DNA from: an uncultured Bacteroidota bacterium | Lineage (GTDB): Bacteria > Bacteroidota > Bacteroidia > Bacteroidales > GCA-2748055 | DNA length: 64,000 nucleotides | Reading direction: 5' to 3' | NCBI GenBank assembly: GCA_937129385.1 | Contig: CAKZNC010000102.1 | Location: 1-64,000 of the forward strand | Part shown: positions 37,674-46,268 of the stretch, piece by piece | Layout: each line of letters starts with the position of its first letter | Position numbering within the stretch: the first letter of the stretch is position 1 | The notes under the pieces: model-generated | Databases searched by the model: none | Told to the model about the DNA's origin: nothing | What the model saw: only the letters and a program-made list of their open reading frames with translations | Made by a program: the position numbers and the translations under genes

Positions 37674-38309
37674 TCAGGCAGTATTAACAGCCTTATTGGT
37701 TTTGACAAAATAGGCAACTTTCTCGAGTGAAGTGATCATATCATACTCATCGATATATACCTCAGGGGAGACATTCAACGGTACAGTTGTAAAGTTCAAC
37801 AACCCCCTCACCCCTGCAAGGTAAAGGTTTTCAGCAATTTCCCTCGCCTGGTCGGCTGGAACAGTAATGACAGCAATGGAGATGTTTTTCTGACTGATGA
37901 TCTCCTGCATCTGGTTGATAGCATAACACTTTACTCCAGAGATCACCCTGTCAACCTTGTTTGGATCCACATCAAAGGCAGCCACAATGTTCAGTTTGGA
38001 ACGCTTGCCCATAAAGTAGGCAGTGATTGCCCTGCCCAGATTACCGATCCCAACAACCGCAACATTTAAGCCGGTCTCACTGTCCAGGATGTTCCCGATT
38101 ACATCGATCAGCTCCTTGACATCGTAGCCTTTCCGCTGCATGCTGCTGTAACCGATAAACATGATGTCACGACGAACCTGCACAGCAGTATTATGGTGCA
38201 TCTGGGCCAACTCATGAGAATAAATATGTGTCTTGCCTTCTGCAAGACAGTTCAGCAAGGATCGCCTGTATTCACTGATACGCTCTACTGTTCTTTCGGG
38301 TAATTTCAT
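37674..38309 (-). CDS. rex: redox-sensing transcriptional repressor Rex
   Basis: LPERTVERISEYRRSL...HNTAVQVRRDIMFIGY HTH; VAVVGIGNLGRAITAY Rossmann motif. Start adjusted to the internal ATG. Confidence 0.92.
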   Translation of the reverse strand: MKLPERTVERISEYRRSLLNCLAEGKTHIYSHELAQMHHNTAVQVRRDIMFIGYSSMQRKGYDVKELIDVIGNILDSETGLNVAVVGIGNLGRAITAYFMGKRSKLNIVAAFDVDPNKVDRVISGVKCYAINQMQEIISQKNISIAVITVPADQAREIAENLYLAGVRGLLNFTTVPLNVSPEVYIDEYDMITSLEKVAYFVKTNKAVNTA

Positions 38310-38424
38310 ATATCCTGTTTTATTAATACCTGCTTCAGGCAATGCCTGTCATTGATTCAAATTCAGATATCAAAATATGTGCATAAGTTGATATGCAAAA
38401 ATGCAAATTCTGCGTAAATAAATA

Positions 38425-38509: not shown

Positions 38510-40231
38510 CTATTTCAGCACCTTTTTGTGCTCAAAACTGGCAAGGAATAATTCTCTGCTTTCATCTGAACCCGGTGATCTTGCCAGCTCCTCATAGATT
38601 TTTAATGCCGCCTTATTCTTATGGGCAGATTTCACGGATTCATTCTTATCCATCTCATAAATATTCCTTGTCCTGGCTTTGACGGCAGGCTGAGACGGGG
38701 GTATGGGCTGACCGCCCCCGTTGATGCAACCATCCTTGCAGACCATTACTTCAATCATATCATAATGTCTCTTCCCCGATACAACTTCATCCAGGAGTGA
38801 CAGTGCACTTTTCAGACCACTTACAGCAGCCACCCTGATCTCACCTTTCTGGCTGGGAATTGTTACTTCCTTAACGTCACGATGACCACGAAGTTTGGAT
38901 AAACGCGCGTCCTGGAGCTCCTTCTTATTCATCTCCCTGTATACGGTCCTGAGAGTTGCCTCTGCTTCACCTCCACATGTTGCAAGCAACTTACCTGCGG
39001 AACTGACTGCATGGAAAGGTCCGTCTGCAGGTTCTGGTTCGAGCTCCTGGAAATCAATTCCATTAAGCCGGATCAGTCTTGCCATTTCCCTGGTGGTCAG
39101 CACAAAATCAACATCCTGTGTGTGATCAGTATAATAATCCGGACGTGTTGCTTCCTGTTTGGCTGCAGTACAATTTGTGATCAAAACGGAGTGAATCCGA
39201 TGCTTCTTTGTTTTGAGCTTTGATGTGAACCATGTCTTGATCAGTTTCCCTGTGATCTGGTGGGGAGATCTGACCGGGACAAGGTTGGACATCAGTTCCG
39301 GCCTGAACGCTTCAACATAATTGACCCAGGCAGCACATCTGGATGTAATCATCGGAATTTTTTCTGACCGCTTTAGCCTGGTTGCCAATTCTGCAGCCTG
39401 TTCCATTACATAGACATCGCCCCCGCAGGAGGTCTCGAAAATATAGTCAAAACCGATCTTACGAAGCGCACTATTTAAAATACCTTTTAGCTCAGTCCCG
39501 GGTCTGAAACCGAATTCCTCTGCAATGGAAACCACCACCTCCGGCGTATACTGAATTGCAACAATGATCTCCGGATCATCAAGGGATGTATCTATTTCCT
39601 GGAATTGAGTATGATCAATAAGGGCTCCGGTCGGGCAGGAAATGACACACATTCCGCATTCAATACAACTTGAAAATGCCAGTGGTTCTGACAATGCTGT
39701 GGCAATACGCAACTGCTCTCCTCTTCTTTCAAAGTCAAATGCAGCCACGCCGACAATCTCTTCACAAACCCGCACACATCTCCCGCAAAGAATGCATTTT
39801 GCAGGATCCCGCACAATTCCCTTGCTGGAGGTATCAAGCTTGAAATTGCATTTCTGTCCCTGTATGGTTCTGTTCCTTACATTCAAGTCCTCAGAAAGCT
39901 TCTGAAGTTCACAGTTTCCATTCCTTTCACAATACAGGCAATCATCCGGATGGTTGGAAAGGAGCAATTCAACATTTGTCTTCCTTGCATTCAGTACACG
40001 CGCCGAGTGTGTCCTGATCTTCATCCATTCCTCTACCCTGAAAGAACAGGCAGGGACCAGGTTATCATAACCTTCCACCTCGACGACACACATCCTGCAT
40101 GCTCCGGTTGGGGACAGCTCACTCATACTACAAAGGGTCGGAACTTTGATCCCATTGTTCTTCAGCGCCGAAAGGATGGTCTCCCCTCTCTCAACACTGA
40201 TCATCTTTTTATTTACCTCAATCTTGATCAT
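38510..40231 (-). CDS. [FeFe]-hydrogenase-like subunit A (HydA/HndD architecture), atypical active-site surroundings
   Basis: N-terminal [2Fe-2S], His-ligated cluster (HPDDCLYCERNGNC) and 2x[4Fe-4S]; L1 ITSRCAAW, L2 ITNCTAAKQEA, L3 EVMVCKDGCINGGGQP. Confidence 0.92.
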   Translation of the reverse strand: MIKIEVNKKMISVERGETILSALKNNGIKVPTLCSMSELSPTGACRMCVVEVEGYDNLVPACSFRVEEWMKIRTHSARVLNARKTNVELLLSNHPDDCLYCERNGNCELQKLSEDLNVRNRTIQGQKCNFKLDTSSKGIVRDPAKCILCGRCVRVCEEIVGVAAFDFERRGEQLRIATALSEPLAFSSCIECGMCVISCPTGALIDHTQFQEIDTSLDDPEIIVAIQYTPEVVVSIAEEFGFRPGTELKGILNSALRKIGFDYIFETSCGGDVYVMEQAAELATRLKRSEKIPMITSRCAAWVNYVEAFRPELMSNLVPVRSPHQITGKLIKTWFTSKLKTKKHRIHSVLITNCTAAKQEATRPDYYTDHTQDVDFVLTTREMARLIRLNGIDFQELEPEPADGPFHAVSSAGKLLATCGGEAEATLRTVYREMNKKELQDARLSKLRGHRDVKEVTIPSQKGEIRVAAVSGLKSALSLLDEVVSGKRHYDMIEVMVCKDGCINGGGQPIPPSQPAVKARTRNIYEMDKNESVKSAHKNKAALKIYEELARSPGSDESRELFLASFEHKKVLK

Positions 40232-40245
40232 AGCTGTCTGAATGG

Positions 40246-42195
40246 TCAATTGTAGAATACTGCGCTGAATTTACATACCTCCCTGCATATACCACATCCG
40301 GTACATTTGTCCGATACAATAAAAAATGGGTGTCGTTCTGTACCAATGATCGCCTCCTCCGGACATCTTTTTGCGCAAATTGCACATCCCGTACAGAGCT
40401 CAACATCAATATAGTAAGTGCGTAATTCCCTGCAAACATTCGGCTTGCAATGACGGTCAAAAATATGCGCTTCAAACTCCTCCCTGAAATTGCGCAGACT
40501 GCTGATCAGTGGATTGGGCGCAAGCTGACCCAGGCCACAGAGCGAGGTGTCGCGCATCACATCCGCAAGTTTTTCCAATTGTATCAGCCCCCTGAACTTC
40601 TCGAGCGTATCATGCTGATCCTGGTCGGCCGGCTTACGGGTGATCTCATCCAGCAATTCAGACATTCGCTTGGTTCCCTCCCTGCATGGAATGCATTTTC
40701 CGCAACTCTGGTGTTTCATGAATCCCATGAAGTATTTTACCAGATCAACAATACACGTTTTTTCATCAAGCACCAGGATACCTCCGGCACCCAGTACAGC
40801 TCCTTCCCGCCTGAATGTCTCGTAGCAGACAGGAACATTCAGTTTGCCTGCCGGAATGATGCAGCCATAAGGCCCCCCGATATGCACTGCCTTTAGCGTC
40901 CGGTTATCGCTTGCTCCGCCAATGATCTCGTCAACAAGGAATTCGAGGCTTGTCCCCATGGGTATCTCGATAAGACCTTTGTGCCTGGCCCGTCCGCTGA
41001 CAGAAAATATCTTTGTTCCCGGACAATCCTTGGTGCCAATGGACCTGAACCAATCCGGACCGTTCATGACGATGTGTGGAATATTTGAAAGCGTCTCTAC
41101 ATTATTGATCACCGTTGGCTTTTTGTGAAAGCCCCGTTCGGCCGGATAGGGTGGTTTGGATTGCGGCATCCCTCGTTTCCCCTCCATACTGGCAATAAGT
41201 GCTGTCTCCTCTCCACACACAAATGCACCCGGTCCTTTCCTGATCATGATGTCAAGATTAAAACCACTGAAGAAGATATTGTGCCCCAGCAAACCATATG
41301 CCCGCGCCTGATCGATGGCTGCATTTAGTTTTCGAATGGAATCCCTGTATTCAGACCTGATATAGATGAAAGCCCGTGAAGCTCCAATCGCATAAGCAGC
41401 GGTACAGATTCCCTCGATCAATTGGTGTGGATTTCCTTCCATCAACGCACGGTCCATAAATGCCCCTGGATCACTCTCTTCAGCATTACATACCAGGTAT
41501 TTCTGTTCTGCAGGAGTCTGTTGCGCCACCATCCATTTTTTCCCGGTGTTGTATCCACTGCCTGATCTTCCCCGGAGCCCGCTCTCTTCAACCATGACAC
41601 AGATCTCCTCGAAGGTATGCATCCTGATCGCCTTCAGAAATGCTCCATATCCTCCGTTGGCAATATACTCATCGATCGAAAGTGGATTGATGATGCCATT
41701 GTGCCTGAGCAATACGCGCTGCTGTTTGCCAAAAAAGGGAAGTTCATCAAGAAAAGGAATATCCTGCCAGGCATCAAGCTCATCATTTCGAAGCTGACCA
41801 AGCAGTTTTTCCCGGGGAATTGTTTGGTGAAAAATATCGTCAAGCAAAAGGGGTATCTCATCTGCAACCAGGTTCGTATAGAAAATCCTGGTCCTTCCCG
41901 GGAGCTGGATGCTTATTATCGGCTCTTCTGATCCCAGTCCGATTGCACCCGTTTCACCAATCTCCGCATCAATCTCCCGATCATTCAGGTAGGTGTGCAA
42001 TGCCTCATAGATACTGTCGGCACCAGCGATCCGGCCTGATGTATTCATCCCCAGGAGTATCAGCGGCCTCGTCAGTGTATACCTGCGGTTTTCAGTCAGG
42101 GTATCCTGCATCTCCGGGGTAAGTGATTCATCCAACTGCTCTGCAAGTACAGGCAGTAACTCCTTCATCGATATTTTTTCCTTGTTTTCAGACAT
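40246..42195 (-). CDS. NuoF/HydB-like NADH-binding subunit with C-terminal 2x[4Fe-4S]
   Basis: GLRGRSGSGYNTGKKW, GAFVCGEETALIASMEG, SCGKCIPCREGT, CTGCAICAKRCP, CTGCGICREVC. N-terminal thioredoxin-like domain lacks cysteines. Confidence 0.93.
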   Translation of the reverse strand: MSENKEKISMKELLPVLAEQLDESLTPEMQDTLTENRRYTLTRPLILLGMNTSGRIAGADSIYEALHTYLNDREIDAEIGETGAIGLGSEEPIISIQLPGRTRIFYTNLVADEIPLLLDDIFHQTIPREKLLGQLRNDELDAWQDIPFLDELPFFGKQQRVLLRHNGIINPLSIDEYIANGGYGAFLKAIRMHTFEEICVMVEESGLRGRSGSGYNTGKKWMVAQQTPAEQKYLVCNAEESDPGAFMDRALMEGNPHQLIEGICTAAYAIGASRAFIYIRSEYRDSIRKLNAAIDQARAYGLLGHNIFFSGFNLDIMIRKGPGAFVCGEETALIASMEGKRGMPQSKPPYPAERGFHKKPTVINNVETLSNIPHIVMNGPDWFRSIGTKDCPGTKIFSVSGRARHKGLIEIPMGTSLEFLVDEIIGGASDNRTLKAVHIGGPYGCIIPAGKLNVPVCYETFRREGAVLGAGGILVLDEKTCIVDLVKYFMGFMKHQSCGKCIPCREGTKRMSELLDEITRKPADQDQHDTLEKFRGLIQLEKLADVMRDTSLCGLGQLAPNPLISSLRNFREEFEAHIFDRHCKPNVCRELRTYYIDVELCTGCAICAKRCPEEAIIGTERHPFFIVSDKCTGCGICREVCKFSAVFYN

Positions 42196-42206: not shown

Positions 42207-42671
42207 CTACTGATGCATGGATCGGATCTCATCCAGCAACTTCTTTACCCTGTTCGATTTGAACTTCGGATAATACTCATCATTGACAGCGATCACAGGT
42301 GACTGTCCACACGCTCCAATACAAGCCACGATCTCCAGGCTTACCATGCCATCCCTGGTGGTTTCCCCGTCACCGATCCCAAGCTGCTTTTTAAACTCCT
42401 TGCGTATGGATTCAGAATGATCAATATGACAGGCTGAACCATTGCATATACGAATATGGTATTTACCCCGCGGACTGAATGTGAACTGGTTGTAAAAAGT
42501 CGCAAGTCCGTATATCTTGCTGGCAGGCAGATTCAGTTGTGCACCAATCTCTTCAAGTGCCTCTTCAGTAAGATATCCGTATTCGTCCTGGATGGCCTGG
42601 AGTACCGGAATGAGGGAATCCCGGTTTACCTGCTGGAAATGCTGCAGAATATCTTCTATGCGCTGTTTCAT
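42207..42671 (-). CDS. NuoE/HydC-like [2Fe-2S] subunit
   Basis: ICNGSACH...CIGACGQSP ligand pattern; IYGLATFYNQF. Confidence 0.93.
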   Translation of the reverse strand: MKQRIEDILQHFQQVNRDSLIPVLQAIQDEYGYLTEEALEEIGAQLNLPASKIYGLATFYNQFTFSPRGKYHIRICNGSACHIDHSESIRKEFKKQLGIGDGETTRDGMVSLEIVACIGACGQSPVIAVNDEYYPKFKSNRVKKLLDEIRSMHQ

Positions 42672-42968: not shown

Positions 42969-43217
42969 GTGAAAGAGAAGGTAATTATTCAGATATGCAT
43001 GGGAAGTTCCTGTTTCAGCAGGGGCAATAATAAAACCCTGGAAGTCATCCGGCATTACCTTGATGAACATCAGCTTTCAGGGGATGTGGTCCTGAAGGGA
43101 AATCACTGTTTCGGAGATTGCAGCAAGGGACCGGTAGTTAAGATCAACGATCACATTCACGAGGAGATTGACCGTGAAAATATTCTCGAACTGCTGCAGA
43201 AGACGTTTAATACGTAA
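42969..43217 (+). CDS. standalone [2Fe-2S] thioredoxin-like ferredoxin
   Basis: ICMGSSCFSRGN...HCFGDCSKGPVVKIND: CxxxxC...CxxxC ligand pattern; GTG start. Confidence 0.85.
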   Translation: MKEKVIIQICMGSSCFSRGNNKTLEVIRHYLDEHQLSGDVVLKGNHCFGDCSKGPVVKINDHIHEEIDRENILELLQKTFNT

Positions 43218-43226
43218 GATACCCCT

Positions 43227-45071
43227 ATGGAGCCATTGCTAAAGATAAACAGGGAAAAATGCACCGCCTGCTATGCGTGTGTAAGGTCATGTCCTGTCAA
43301 GGCGATCAAAGTCGAACCCGACCGGCCAAAGCCGATCATCATTCCTGAGCGCTGCATCGGATGTGGCAACTGTCATGCTGTCTGTTTCGACAACGCCGTT
43401 GATATCCGCAACAGTAAAGACGAGCTCAAGAAGTTGTTAAAAGGAGAAACACCTGTGGCTGCTCTTGTTGACCCTTCGATCGCAGGAGAATTCCCGGATA
43501 TTACGGATTACCGAAAATTTGTCAGCATGATCCGCAAACTGGGATTCAAGTATGTACAGGAGGTGGCATTTGGGGTTGAACTTGTCGCACAGCAGTATAA
43601 GGAACTCATAAGCAAAAGTAAAGGAAAATACTACCTGTTCGCCAACTGTCCGATCTCCGTTATGTATGTTGAAAAATACAAGCCGGAACTGATCAAAAAC
43701 CTGGCACCGATCGTGCCACCTGTTATTGCTACAGCACGTGTTGCGCGGAAACTCTACGGGAACGATATCCGCCTGGCCTATATATCACCCCTGATTGCAA
43801 GTAAAGAAGAGGCCGTGCGACTTTCCGGCGAAGAAAGAATTGATACTGTCCTCACTTTCCTTGAGCTCAGAGAACTCTTCAGCGAATCAGGAATCGATGA
43901 AAAAAACCTGGAATACAGTGAATTTAACGATCCCATCGGATACAAAGGATCCCTCTTCCCCTTGTCAAGCGGAATACTTGAAGCAGCCGACATTGACCAG
44001 CGTGTTCTCACCTCAAAGGTCATAACTGTAGAAGGTGACCTTATATTTGACAGCATCAGGGAGTTCGAAGAAGAGATTACGACGATCAAATCTCATTTTA
44101 ATATCTTCTACAAAGAGTTTATCATGGGGAGAGGCACCTCTCCCGGAGCCAGGAAATGGCTCCGGCGAAGTCAGCTGATCAAATACCTGAACAGGCGTGC
44201 AGGAAATTTTGATGAGAAGTCACACCAGGCAGCACTGTCAGCTTATGATGATATCAAGCTTGAAAGGGGGTTTGTGAATGATGATCAGCGACTTCCTGCA
44301 CCCCCGAAAGATAAAGTTGAGAAGATACAGGCTGAATTGCAAAAGCATGAAGAAAATGAAAGAGGATGCGGTGCATGTGGATATAAATCATGCCACGAAT
44401 TTGCCACTGCAATTGCCCAGGGACTCGCTGTTCCGGAGATGTGCAACTTCTACGCCACAAGCAATACCCTGGACCACATTCAGTCACTTAAAATCAGTAA
44501 TGAAAAACTGGCACAGGCACAGGCTGCCCTGAAGGCTTCAGAAAAAATTGCAAGACAGGAAAAAGAATCTTCGATGGAGGCTTCTGAAATAACCAGGACC
44601 ATGCTGCAAAAGCTTCCATCCGGGGTCGTGATCCTGGATAAATCACTTAAAATTATACAAGCCAATGAAAGCTTCATTGAACTGCTTGGCGAAGAGGCAC
44701 TTGAGATCAATGAGGTAATACCGGGATTAACAGGCGCAGATCTGAAGACATTACTCCCCTATCCGGTTCATAACCTGTTTACCTATGTACTCGCCAACAA
44801 TGAAAATATTACTGACCGGGACATCACACTAGTTGGTAAACAGTTCAGCATCTCTGTTTTCGTCATCAGGAAAGAAAAAATCGTCGGCGCAGTCATCCGC
44901 GACCTATCTGCTCCAGAAGTGCAAAAAGAAGAGATTGTCAAACGCCTTACCGATGTGGTCGATAAAAACCTGAGCCTGGTGCAACAGATCGGGTTTATCC
45001 TTGGCGAAGGGGCTTCGGAATCTGAGCGAATGCTGAACTCGATAATAGAATCCTACAAGCCAAAAAATTAG
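43227..45071 (+). CDS. [FeFe]-hydrogenase-like sensory protein (2x[4Fe-4S] + Fe_hyd_lg_C-like + FeS domain + PAS) with degenerate H-cluster motifs
   Basis: CTACYACVRSCP, CIGCGNCHAVC; LFANCPISVMYVEKYKPEL; GCGACGYKSCHEFATAIAQG; PAS-like VVILDKSLKIIQANESFIELLG. Confidence 0.88.
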   Translation: MEPLLKINREKCTACYACVRSCPVKAIKVEPDRPKPIIIPERCIGCGNCHAVCFDNAVDIRNSKDELKKLLKGETPVAALVDPSIAGEFPDITDYRKFVSMIRKLGFKYVQEVAFGVELVAQQYKELISKSKGKYYLFANCPISVMYVEKYKPELIKNLAPIVPPVIATARVARKLYGNDIRLAYISPLIASKEEAVRLSGEERIDTVLTFLELRELFSESGIDEKNLEYSEFNDPIGYKGSLFPLSSGILEAADIDQRVLTSKVITVEGDLIFDSIREFEEEITTIKSHFNIFYKEFIMGRGTSPGARKWLRRSQLIKYLNRRAGNFDEKSHQAALSAYDDIKLERGFVNDDQRLPAPPKDKVEKIQAELQKHEENERGCGACGYKSCHEFATAIAQGLAVPEMCNFYATSNTLDHIQSLKISNEKLAQAQAALKASEKIARQEKESSMEASEITRTMLQKLPSGVVILDKSLKIIQANESFIELLGEEALEINEVIPGLTGADLKTLLPYPVHNLFTYVLANNENITDRDITLVGKQFSISVFVIRKEKIVGAVIRDLSAPEVQKEEIVKRLTDVVDKNLSLVQQIGFILGEGASESERMLNSIIESYKPKN

Positions 45072-45083
45072 GCTGGACAAAGC

Positions 45084-46268
45084 ATGAACAGCGATTTTTA
45101 CATAGAGGTGATTTCTGAGCAAAGAAATTATGGTGAGGAACGGATTTGCGGGGATGTATTCCTGTCGCGTAAAATCAGGGAGGAAAACCGCACAATCGCA
45201 GTCCTGTCCGATGGAATGGGGCACGGTGTAAAAGCCAATGTACTTGCTACATTAACAGCCACTATGTCGGTCAATTTCACAATTGAACACAAACATCCTG
45301 AAACCATCGCAGATATCATCATGAATACACTGCCGGTATGCAGTGAGCGGCACATGAGCTATTCAACATTTACCATTGTGGATATCGAAGCCGATGGAAA
45401 AATCAATATACTGGAATATGACAACCCACAGACCATCATTATCCGAAACCTGAGACTGTTTGATCCGGGATGGCAGCAGACGGTGTTGCATACGGCAAAA
45501 AATGAAGGCAAGGAGATCAGGACCTGTCAGTTCAAACCCCTGAAGGAGGACAGGATCCTTATATTCTCGGATGGCATTACCCAGAGTGGATTGGGTACAG
45601 AAAAATTCCCGCTTGGATGGGGGCACGACCAACTTGCATCCTATGCTGAAAAGCTCGTCAGGAACACCCCCAGCCTGTCAGCTGCCAAACTTGCCGAAAA
45701 AATTGTCAATATGGCTTACCGTAACGACAATTATAGTTCAAAGGATGATACCAGCTGTGCAAGTATCTATTTCCGTGAACCCAGGAAATTACTCATCTCC
45801 ACCGGCCCTCCATATGAAAAAGAAAATGACAAGAAACTTGTCAGCGCAGTTAAGGAATTCAAAGGCAAGAAGATCATTTGTGGTGCAACCACCGCCGACA
45901 TCATCGCCAGGGGCCTGGATGTCACTATTGAAGACAGCCTTGAATTCTCAGATCCCGACCTTCCCCCGGTTTCTGTCATGCCCGGCATAGACCTGGTGAC
46001 CGAAGGAATTCTTACGCTGACAAAAGTTACCAGGATACTGAAAGAATACACCCCGGGTTACGACCTGGGCAATGGTCCGGCCGACAGGATCATAAAAATG
46101 GTGAAGGAGAGTGATGAGATCGAGATCATTATCGGCACACGTATCAATATCGCACACCAGGACCCAAATCTCCCGGTCGACCTCGAAATCCGCCGCACTG
46201 TGGCAAAAAGGATGTCCAGGCTGCTGGAAGAAAAATTCCTCAAAGAGGTCTCAATAAGGTATATTTAG
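45084..46268 (+). CDS. SpoIIE-like PP2C serine phosphatase with uncharacterised C-terminal domain
   Basis: IAVLSDGMGHGVKANVLATLT, STFTIVDIEADGKINILEYDNP, RILIFSDGITQSGLG. Confidence 0.85.
   Translation: MNSDFYIEVISEQRNYGEERICGDVFLSRKIREENRTIAVLSDGMGHGVKANVLATLTATMSVNFTIEHKHPETIADIIMNTLPVCSERHMSYSTFTIVDIEADGKINILEYDNPQTIIIRNLRLFDPGWQQTVLHTAKNEGKEIRTCQFKPLKEDRILIFSDGITQSGLGTEKFPLGWGHDQLASYAEKLVRNTPSLSAAKLAEKIVNMAYRNDNYSSKDDTSCASIYFREPRKLLISTGPPYEKENDKKLVSAVKEFKGKKIICGATTADIIARGLDVTIEDSLEFSDPDLPPVSVMPGIDLVTEGILTLTKVTRILKEYTPGYDLGNGPADRIIKMVKESDEIEIIIGTRINIAHQDPNLPVDLEIRRTVAKRMSRLLEEKFLKEVSIRYI

Follow-up and report, generated by a model that had tools for sequence, protein, structure and literature searches.

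The closest described relatives of the protein considered here are the sensory [FeFe]-hydrogenases of group C. Thermotoga maritima HydS (group C, M2f) contains two N-terminal [4Fe-4S] motifs, an H domain, a Cx2Cx4Cx16C motif and a PAS domain, and its proton-transfer cysteine is replaced (PMC10055695, PMC8163306), this being a residue that is mostly missing from sensory hydrogenases (PMC10055695); its H-cluster has been characterised spectroscopically and the ligands are conserved. The Cx2Cx4Cx16C spacing is the published motif of the group C and D sensory hydrogenases (PMC8163306). The putative HydDB group C3 has a linked Ser/Thr phosphatase (PMC5037454) and is described as possibly H2 sensing. 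Ruminococcus albus 7 HydS (pRUMAL01, RUMAL_RS17375) has been proposed to sense H2 and to signal via its PAS domain (a proposal cited second-hand in PMC5707799). It contains all of the H-cluster cysteines (ISSCC, GPC, CNGSC) as well as the [2Fe]-anchoring lysine, and is encoded near rex in an operon with two [2Fe-2S] thioredoxin-like genes upstream of hydS and a SpoIIE phosphatase gene after it.

The window analysed here is a 64,000 bp stretch of DNA from an uncultured Bacteroidota bacterium of the order Bacteroidales, and it contains an operon of this same type, which is common to R. albus and the Bacteroidales. The central gene (43227–45071, + strand) encodes a 614 aa HydS-like protein with the domain order of R. 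albus HydS over 99% of its length (25% aa identity); unlike the relatives described above, it lacks the site for an H2-binding cofactor, and we refer to it as pseudo-HydS. Upstream is an 82 aa [2Fe-2S] thioredoxin-like protein (42969–43217, + strand, with a GTG start) that resembles the C-terminal domain of HydC (PF01257, E = 4.8e-13), has its four cluster cysteines in all 81 orthologues, and is the probable electron-transfer partner of pseudo-HydS. Directly downstream is the proposed output, a SpoIIE/PP2C phosphatase (45084–46268, + strand; PF07228, E = 1e-11), which is apparently catalytic, as the metal-binding aspartates are retained here and in every readable sequence among 86 orthologues. 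A group A-type hydrogenase operon is divergently transcribed and encodes, all on the – strand, HydC (NuoE-like; 42207–42671; PF01257), the flavin subunit HydB (NuoF-like; 40246–42195; PF01512 and PF10589) and HydA (38510–40249), followed by the NADH/NAD+-sensing repressor Rex (37674–38342; NF003995, E = 1.3e-58). Scans of the intergenic region for promoters, terminators and inverted repeats gave no signal above chance.

The reading frame, its coordinates and the accessory domains of pseudo-HydS are as given in the original prediction, which had been made from the sequence alone, and Pfam searches agree with them, as they do with its proposal of a HydS-type architecture near a PP2C phosphatase. 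The matches are two Fer4 domains, Fe_hyd_lg_C (aa 77–286; PF02906, E = 2.6e-31), an FeS domain (aa 381–407; PF04060, E = 3.1e-8) and a PAS domain (44622–44906, + strand; PF13188, E = 2.9e-6), and thus include every element of a group C (M2f) HydS in the same order. The two N-terminal [4Fe-4S] motifs (Cys 12, 15, 18, 22 and Cys 43, 46, 49, 53; 43260–43385, + strand) have all eight cysteines in each of 22 members of the family defined below. Cys 381, 384, 389 and 406 (44367–44444, + strand) match the Cx2Cx4Cx16C spacing exactly and are invariant in 94 orthologues, and in the model secondary structure the PAS domain is flanked by two long helices (407–461 and 563–609). Pseudo-HydS descends from HydS of the phosphatase-linked type (HydDB C3), an assignment made by architecture and synteny only. 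AlphaFold models of pseudo-HydS and of an intact orthologue (L138), compared for fold similarity and confidence only, have the same mean pLDDT (81) and both have [FeFe]-hydrogenases as their best Foldseek matches, with target TM values of 0.63–0.68 for pseudo-HydS against a Desulfovibrio desulfuricans-type hydrogenase.

The H domain itself departs from this architecture at the ligand positions. We collected orthologues from related genomes and by a scan of GTDB genomes, nearly all of them metagenome-assembled, and aligned their motifs; of the 94 sequences, 22 are from the window's taxonomic family within the Bacteroidales and 72 from outside it. The window protein retains only one of the four cysteines that would ligate an H-cluster. 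The L1 equivalent (YLFANCPISV; 43632–43661, + strand) keeps its ligand Cys141, the only cysteine left in this H domain, as the original prediction had recognised. That prediction also counted the preceding asparagine as a lost ligand, which does not stand, because the first L1 residue of [FeFe]-hydrogenases is a proton-transfer position rather than a cluster ligand, and it is cysteine in just two of the 72 intact orthologues. In the L2 equivalent (LAYISPLIASKEEA; 43773–43814, + strand) the cysteine is replaced by leucine as predicted, with Leu189 of AYISPLIASKEEA aligned to the cysteine of the orthologues, and the [2Fe]-anchoring lysine is replaced by Ser192. The L3 equivalent (SHFNIFYKEFIMGRGTS; 44091–44141, + strand) has no cysteine in FYKE-F when aligned against the FYCEGC of orthologues; both ligands are indeed absent, although their substitutes are not the tyrosine and phenylalanine named earlier but Lys296 and Phe298, with a glycine deleted.

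These changes are shared throughout the family, in line with the survey of homologues suggested at the outset. All 22 members have Leu, Val or Ile in place of the L2 cysteine, and all have lost both L3 cysteines (to Lys, Thr or Asn, and then to Phe) and are one residue shorter there; the L1 ligand is retained in seven and is Asp in the other 15, which thus have none of the four cysteines, and the H domain is free of any cysteine in 11. Outside the family the L1, L2 and second L3 cysteines are present in 72/72 orthologues, so that loss of the L2 and second L3 ligands is found in 22/22 against 0/72, a pattern far beyond chance. Only eight columns in the whole protein are fixed in a family-specific manner, and three of these are ligand positions. 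The claim that an H-cluster cannot be bound is therefore upheld for the window protein, as far as residues can predict it, and for the family at large.

The first L3 cysteine is less constant. It is replaced by Asn, Asp or His as the only lost ligand in 15 orthologues outside the family (L063, L066, L114, L116, L119, L121, L131, L141, L142, L154, L158, L159, L166, L169 and L170), and at least four changes in all are needed at this position on the tree. These sequences represent either intermediates of ligand loss or the use of an alternative ligand. Two of them, L158 and L166, are a near-identical Bacteroidales locus in a record titled Alphaproteobacteria (INTA.CYC.164), and wrong titles are also likely for the records of Chitinophaga pinensis and Bacteroides fragilis MiH.

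Precedents among related proteins come from other settings. Group C1 proteins of Hydrogenedentota are likewise sensory-type homologues in which H-cluster motifs are hardly found (PMC11406978); as far as the available text of that report goes they have a HATPase domain and are not resolved to residues or clades, whereas pseudo-HydS has a PAS domain and a SpoIIE link and its loss can be mapped on a tree. Yeast Nar1/IOP1 is [FeFe]-hydrogenase-like and without hydrogenase activity (PMC12621388). It differs in that it serves cluster assembly in eukaryotes, has two [4Fe-4S] sites that are both conserved and is linked to neither a PAS domain nor a phosphatase; pseudo-HydS has no counterpart of its second four-cysteine site, Cys141 being the only cysteine left in the H domain.

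Trees were built by a quick method, with the ligand loops excluded for the clade tree. The 22 ligand-less sequences form one clade (SH-aLRT 96) whose nearest outgroups, L137 and L138, are both intact. A single change is required for the L2 cysteine and another for the second L3 cysteine, with two for the L1 cysteine; on these trees ligand loss maps to one branch and has a single origin. Close homologues were present in only four of 395 genomes of a class-wide survey, the window's own genome counted. In the family the H domain is under continued selection, with dN/dS of 0.016–0.19 for six family pairs with unsaturated dS (some near saturation). Relaxed constraint on the H domain was looked for in the family as its rate relative to the C-terminal region and was not seen, the ratio being 1.57 as against 0.87–2.77 in intact clades. 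The twelve accessory cluster cysteines are present in 22/22 members. With the H domain constrained, these cysteines, those of the [2Fe-2S] partner and the SpoIIE aspartates kept, and the same fold predicted, the loss is specific to the H-cluster. Loss of functional residues might suggest a pseudogene in decay, or an error made in sequencing or assembly, and it was against an error of this kind, or against intact cysteines in the same clade, that the original prediction had to be weighed. The 22 genomes have full-length open reading frames with the same changes, the dN/dS values are low, the other cofactor sites are intact and unaltered orthologues are confined to sequences outside the clade; decay or error is scarcely credible and we have ruled it out. 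As a separate observation, Cys15, the second cysteine of the first N-terminal cluster, is replaced by Ser, Asn or Thr in 20 of the 72 orthologues outside the family and is always present in the family that lacks the H-cluster.

The former ligand loops (PLIASK and FYKEF-MGRGTS) are strongly conserved after the loss, as in a pocket that has been put to another use, and the emptied H domain could bind a new small ligand, such as a gas, a nucleotide or a metabolite, that is the real signal. However, packing alone would give equal conservation of the loops, the ligand positions themselves vary among genera (Cys or Asp; Lys, Thr or Asn), and the Pfam search shows no known ligand-binding signature; we think a new ligand quite improbable.

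A further change appears to precede the loss of the cysteines. The canonical L2 motif has a lysine at Cys+3 that forms a hydrogen bond to a cyanide of the [2Fe] subsite, and which we take to be the equivalent of Lys358 of CpI. None of the 94 orthologues has this lysine, even where all four cysteines are present, although an adjacent lysine at Cys+4 is kept and might take its place. Every other hydrogenase-like sensor examined has the Cys+3 lysine, including 63/63 histidine-kinase-linked HydS2 paralogues, 14/14 HydS proteins of the contig C145 type, and the homologues in R. albus, Monoglobus and Acetoanaerobium; HydA proteins outside the family have Lys (41) or Arg (6) at this position in 51 sequences. 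Loss of the lysine is a single change on a 61-sequence tree (branch support 97). Its absence even from four-cysteine orthologues indicates a two-step loss of the cofactor: the [2Fe] subsite probably went first, in the orthologue clade as a whole, and the cubane later, in the window's family.

The linked HydA is also altered. Its four ligand cysteines are present here, as in all 16 family members examined, although residues of the [2Fe] pocket are changed: the proton-transfer cysteine is Ser, Arg or Asp in 16/16, and 15/16 have also lost the residues around the [2Fe] subsite, namely Met, Pro and Lys, such that the window protein has TSRC and TNCTAA instead of TSCC and MPCTAK. Outside the family the Lys or an Arg is kept in 46/48 (Fisher p = 1e-11 versus the family, a test that ignores shared ancestry). 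From these residues the window HydA may not be a working hydrogenase. It is comparable to HydA of the Acetomicrobium mobile NiFe-HydABCSL complex, which has only a [4Fe-4S] cluster at the H-cluster site (PMC9304861); that protein is a subunit of a catalytic complex fed by a NiFe module and, unlike pseudo-HydS, is not a sensor. L108, which comes from a genus among the first to branch off within the family, combines a degenerate sensor with an otherwise canonical HydA, and the sensor was therefore probably changed before HydA.

Because pseudo-HydS and HydA are altered in the same family, because the head-to-head arrangement with hydCBA recurs across the Bacteroidales and because an additional HydC-like [2Fe-2S] protein is encoded alongside, pseudo-HydS could, rather than act as a sensor on its own, bind to the divergent HydABC-type complex in a structural or regulatory role and control the transfer of electrons through it. 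This is unlikely given that the SpoIIE phosphatase and PAS domain suggest signalling, and that in one genome (G005; L062, 5459–8650) rex lies immediately next to the [2Fe-2S]–pseudo-HydS–SpoIIE operon and HydABC of the window type is absent, so that the operon persists without this partner.

The cell nonetheless appears able to make H-clusters, since its genome encodes two canonical HydA proteins and one canonical HydS elsewhere, as well as HydE, HydF and HydG. The presence of all three maturases rules out, for this genome, that the ligands were lost for want of H-cluster maturation. All three are missing from five related metagenome-assembled genomes (G005, G007, G011, G014 and G016; 87–96% complete), and since all but G014 carry canonical HydA genes, this absence is probably due to incompleteness or binning and was left out of the argument. 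A separate canonical HydS locus beside canonical HydABC (G000:C145; L084, 9517–12800) also contains RsbW-like ATPase, DRTGG and PHP-domain genes, and G046 (L079, 6766–10050), a genome of the same taxonomic order, has a further [2Fe-2S]–HydS–SpoIIE operon with canonical ligands and lysine, which makes it a useful H2-sensing control.

Most relatives encode a second, canonical HydS, linked to a histidine kinase, beside hydA; in L106 (2453–4441, – strand) and its equivalents this paralogue has canonical ligands, is fused to HisKA–HATPase domains and adjoins a response-regulator–kinase hybrid gene. The typical Bacteroidales locus thus has two sensor arms, one of which is lacking in the window's genome, where a search for a histidine-kinase-linked HydS found none. 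Pairing with such an intact sensor, or with the canonical HydS elsewhere in the window's genome, could in principle allow pseudo-HydS to sense H2 indirectly, but the histidine-kinase-linked partner is missing here and at seven of 13 informative family loci, compared with three of 38 others, and indirect sensing of H2 is very improbable. A broader and tentative interpretation is that the whole locus may have been converted from hydrogen handling into a redox module independent of hydrogen, with a HydABC whose HydA has the cubane cysteines but is unable to hold the [2Fe] subsite, a HydS-derived sensor without an H-cluster, and the canonical histidine-kinase H2 sensor discarded. If so, HydABC would be an NADH/ferredoxin bifurcating core whose third substrate is different or which has none.

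The reading that we favour, with modest confidence, is that pseudo-HydS, a homologue of the sensory [FeFe]-hydrogenases, has lost the ability to respond to H2 and works as a redox sensor. The route of electron entry, the signal and the control of the phosphatase are what we infer from the anatomy described above. Electrons from an NADH/ferredoxin-linked HydABC-type complex or from the ferredoxin pool would pass by way of the [2Fe-2S] protein to the N-terminal clusters, and the cofactor-free H domain would act as a scaffold that joins these to the C-terminal cluster. Together with the PAS domain, the redox state of this last cluster would change the coiled coil and so alter SpoIIE activity, and SpoIIE would dephosphorylate a putative regulator of genes for fermentation or electron flow. 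On the simplest reading, a chain of this kind now carries a redox signal from the ferredoxin/NADH side without H2 input. Against redox sensing, the PAS domain could bind a ligand of its own and the clusters could be purely structural, and we know of no demonstration of a signalling role for the C-terminal cluster even in true HydS proteins.

The novel finding is that a HydS with a PAS domain and a SpoIIE link has lost its cofactor site in two steps, traced residue by residue across a whole clade, while all its other parts are kept. To our knowledge, HydS proteins are labelled as H2 sensors because of their H domain and not from direct physiological evidence, and no function has been proven for their accessory clusters or PAS domain. 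Pseudo-HydS lacks the residues that the cofactor needs and should therefore not be classed as a hydrogenase, and homology-based surveys would wrongly score genes of this kind as hydrogenases or H2 sensors. The natural removal of the H-cluster alone, with selection on the rest maintained, separates the reading of H2 from the remaining machine, and the retained selection implies a selected signal carried by the other clusters, the PAS domain and the phosphatase. Pseudo-HydS is thus a natural control for what group C sensors read, and the series from canonical proteins through those that have lost the lysine, then one ligand and then all of them preserves, in living lineages, intermediate stages in the loss of a sensor's cofactor.
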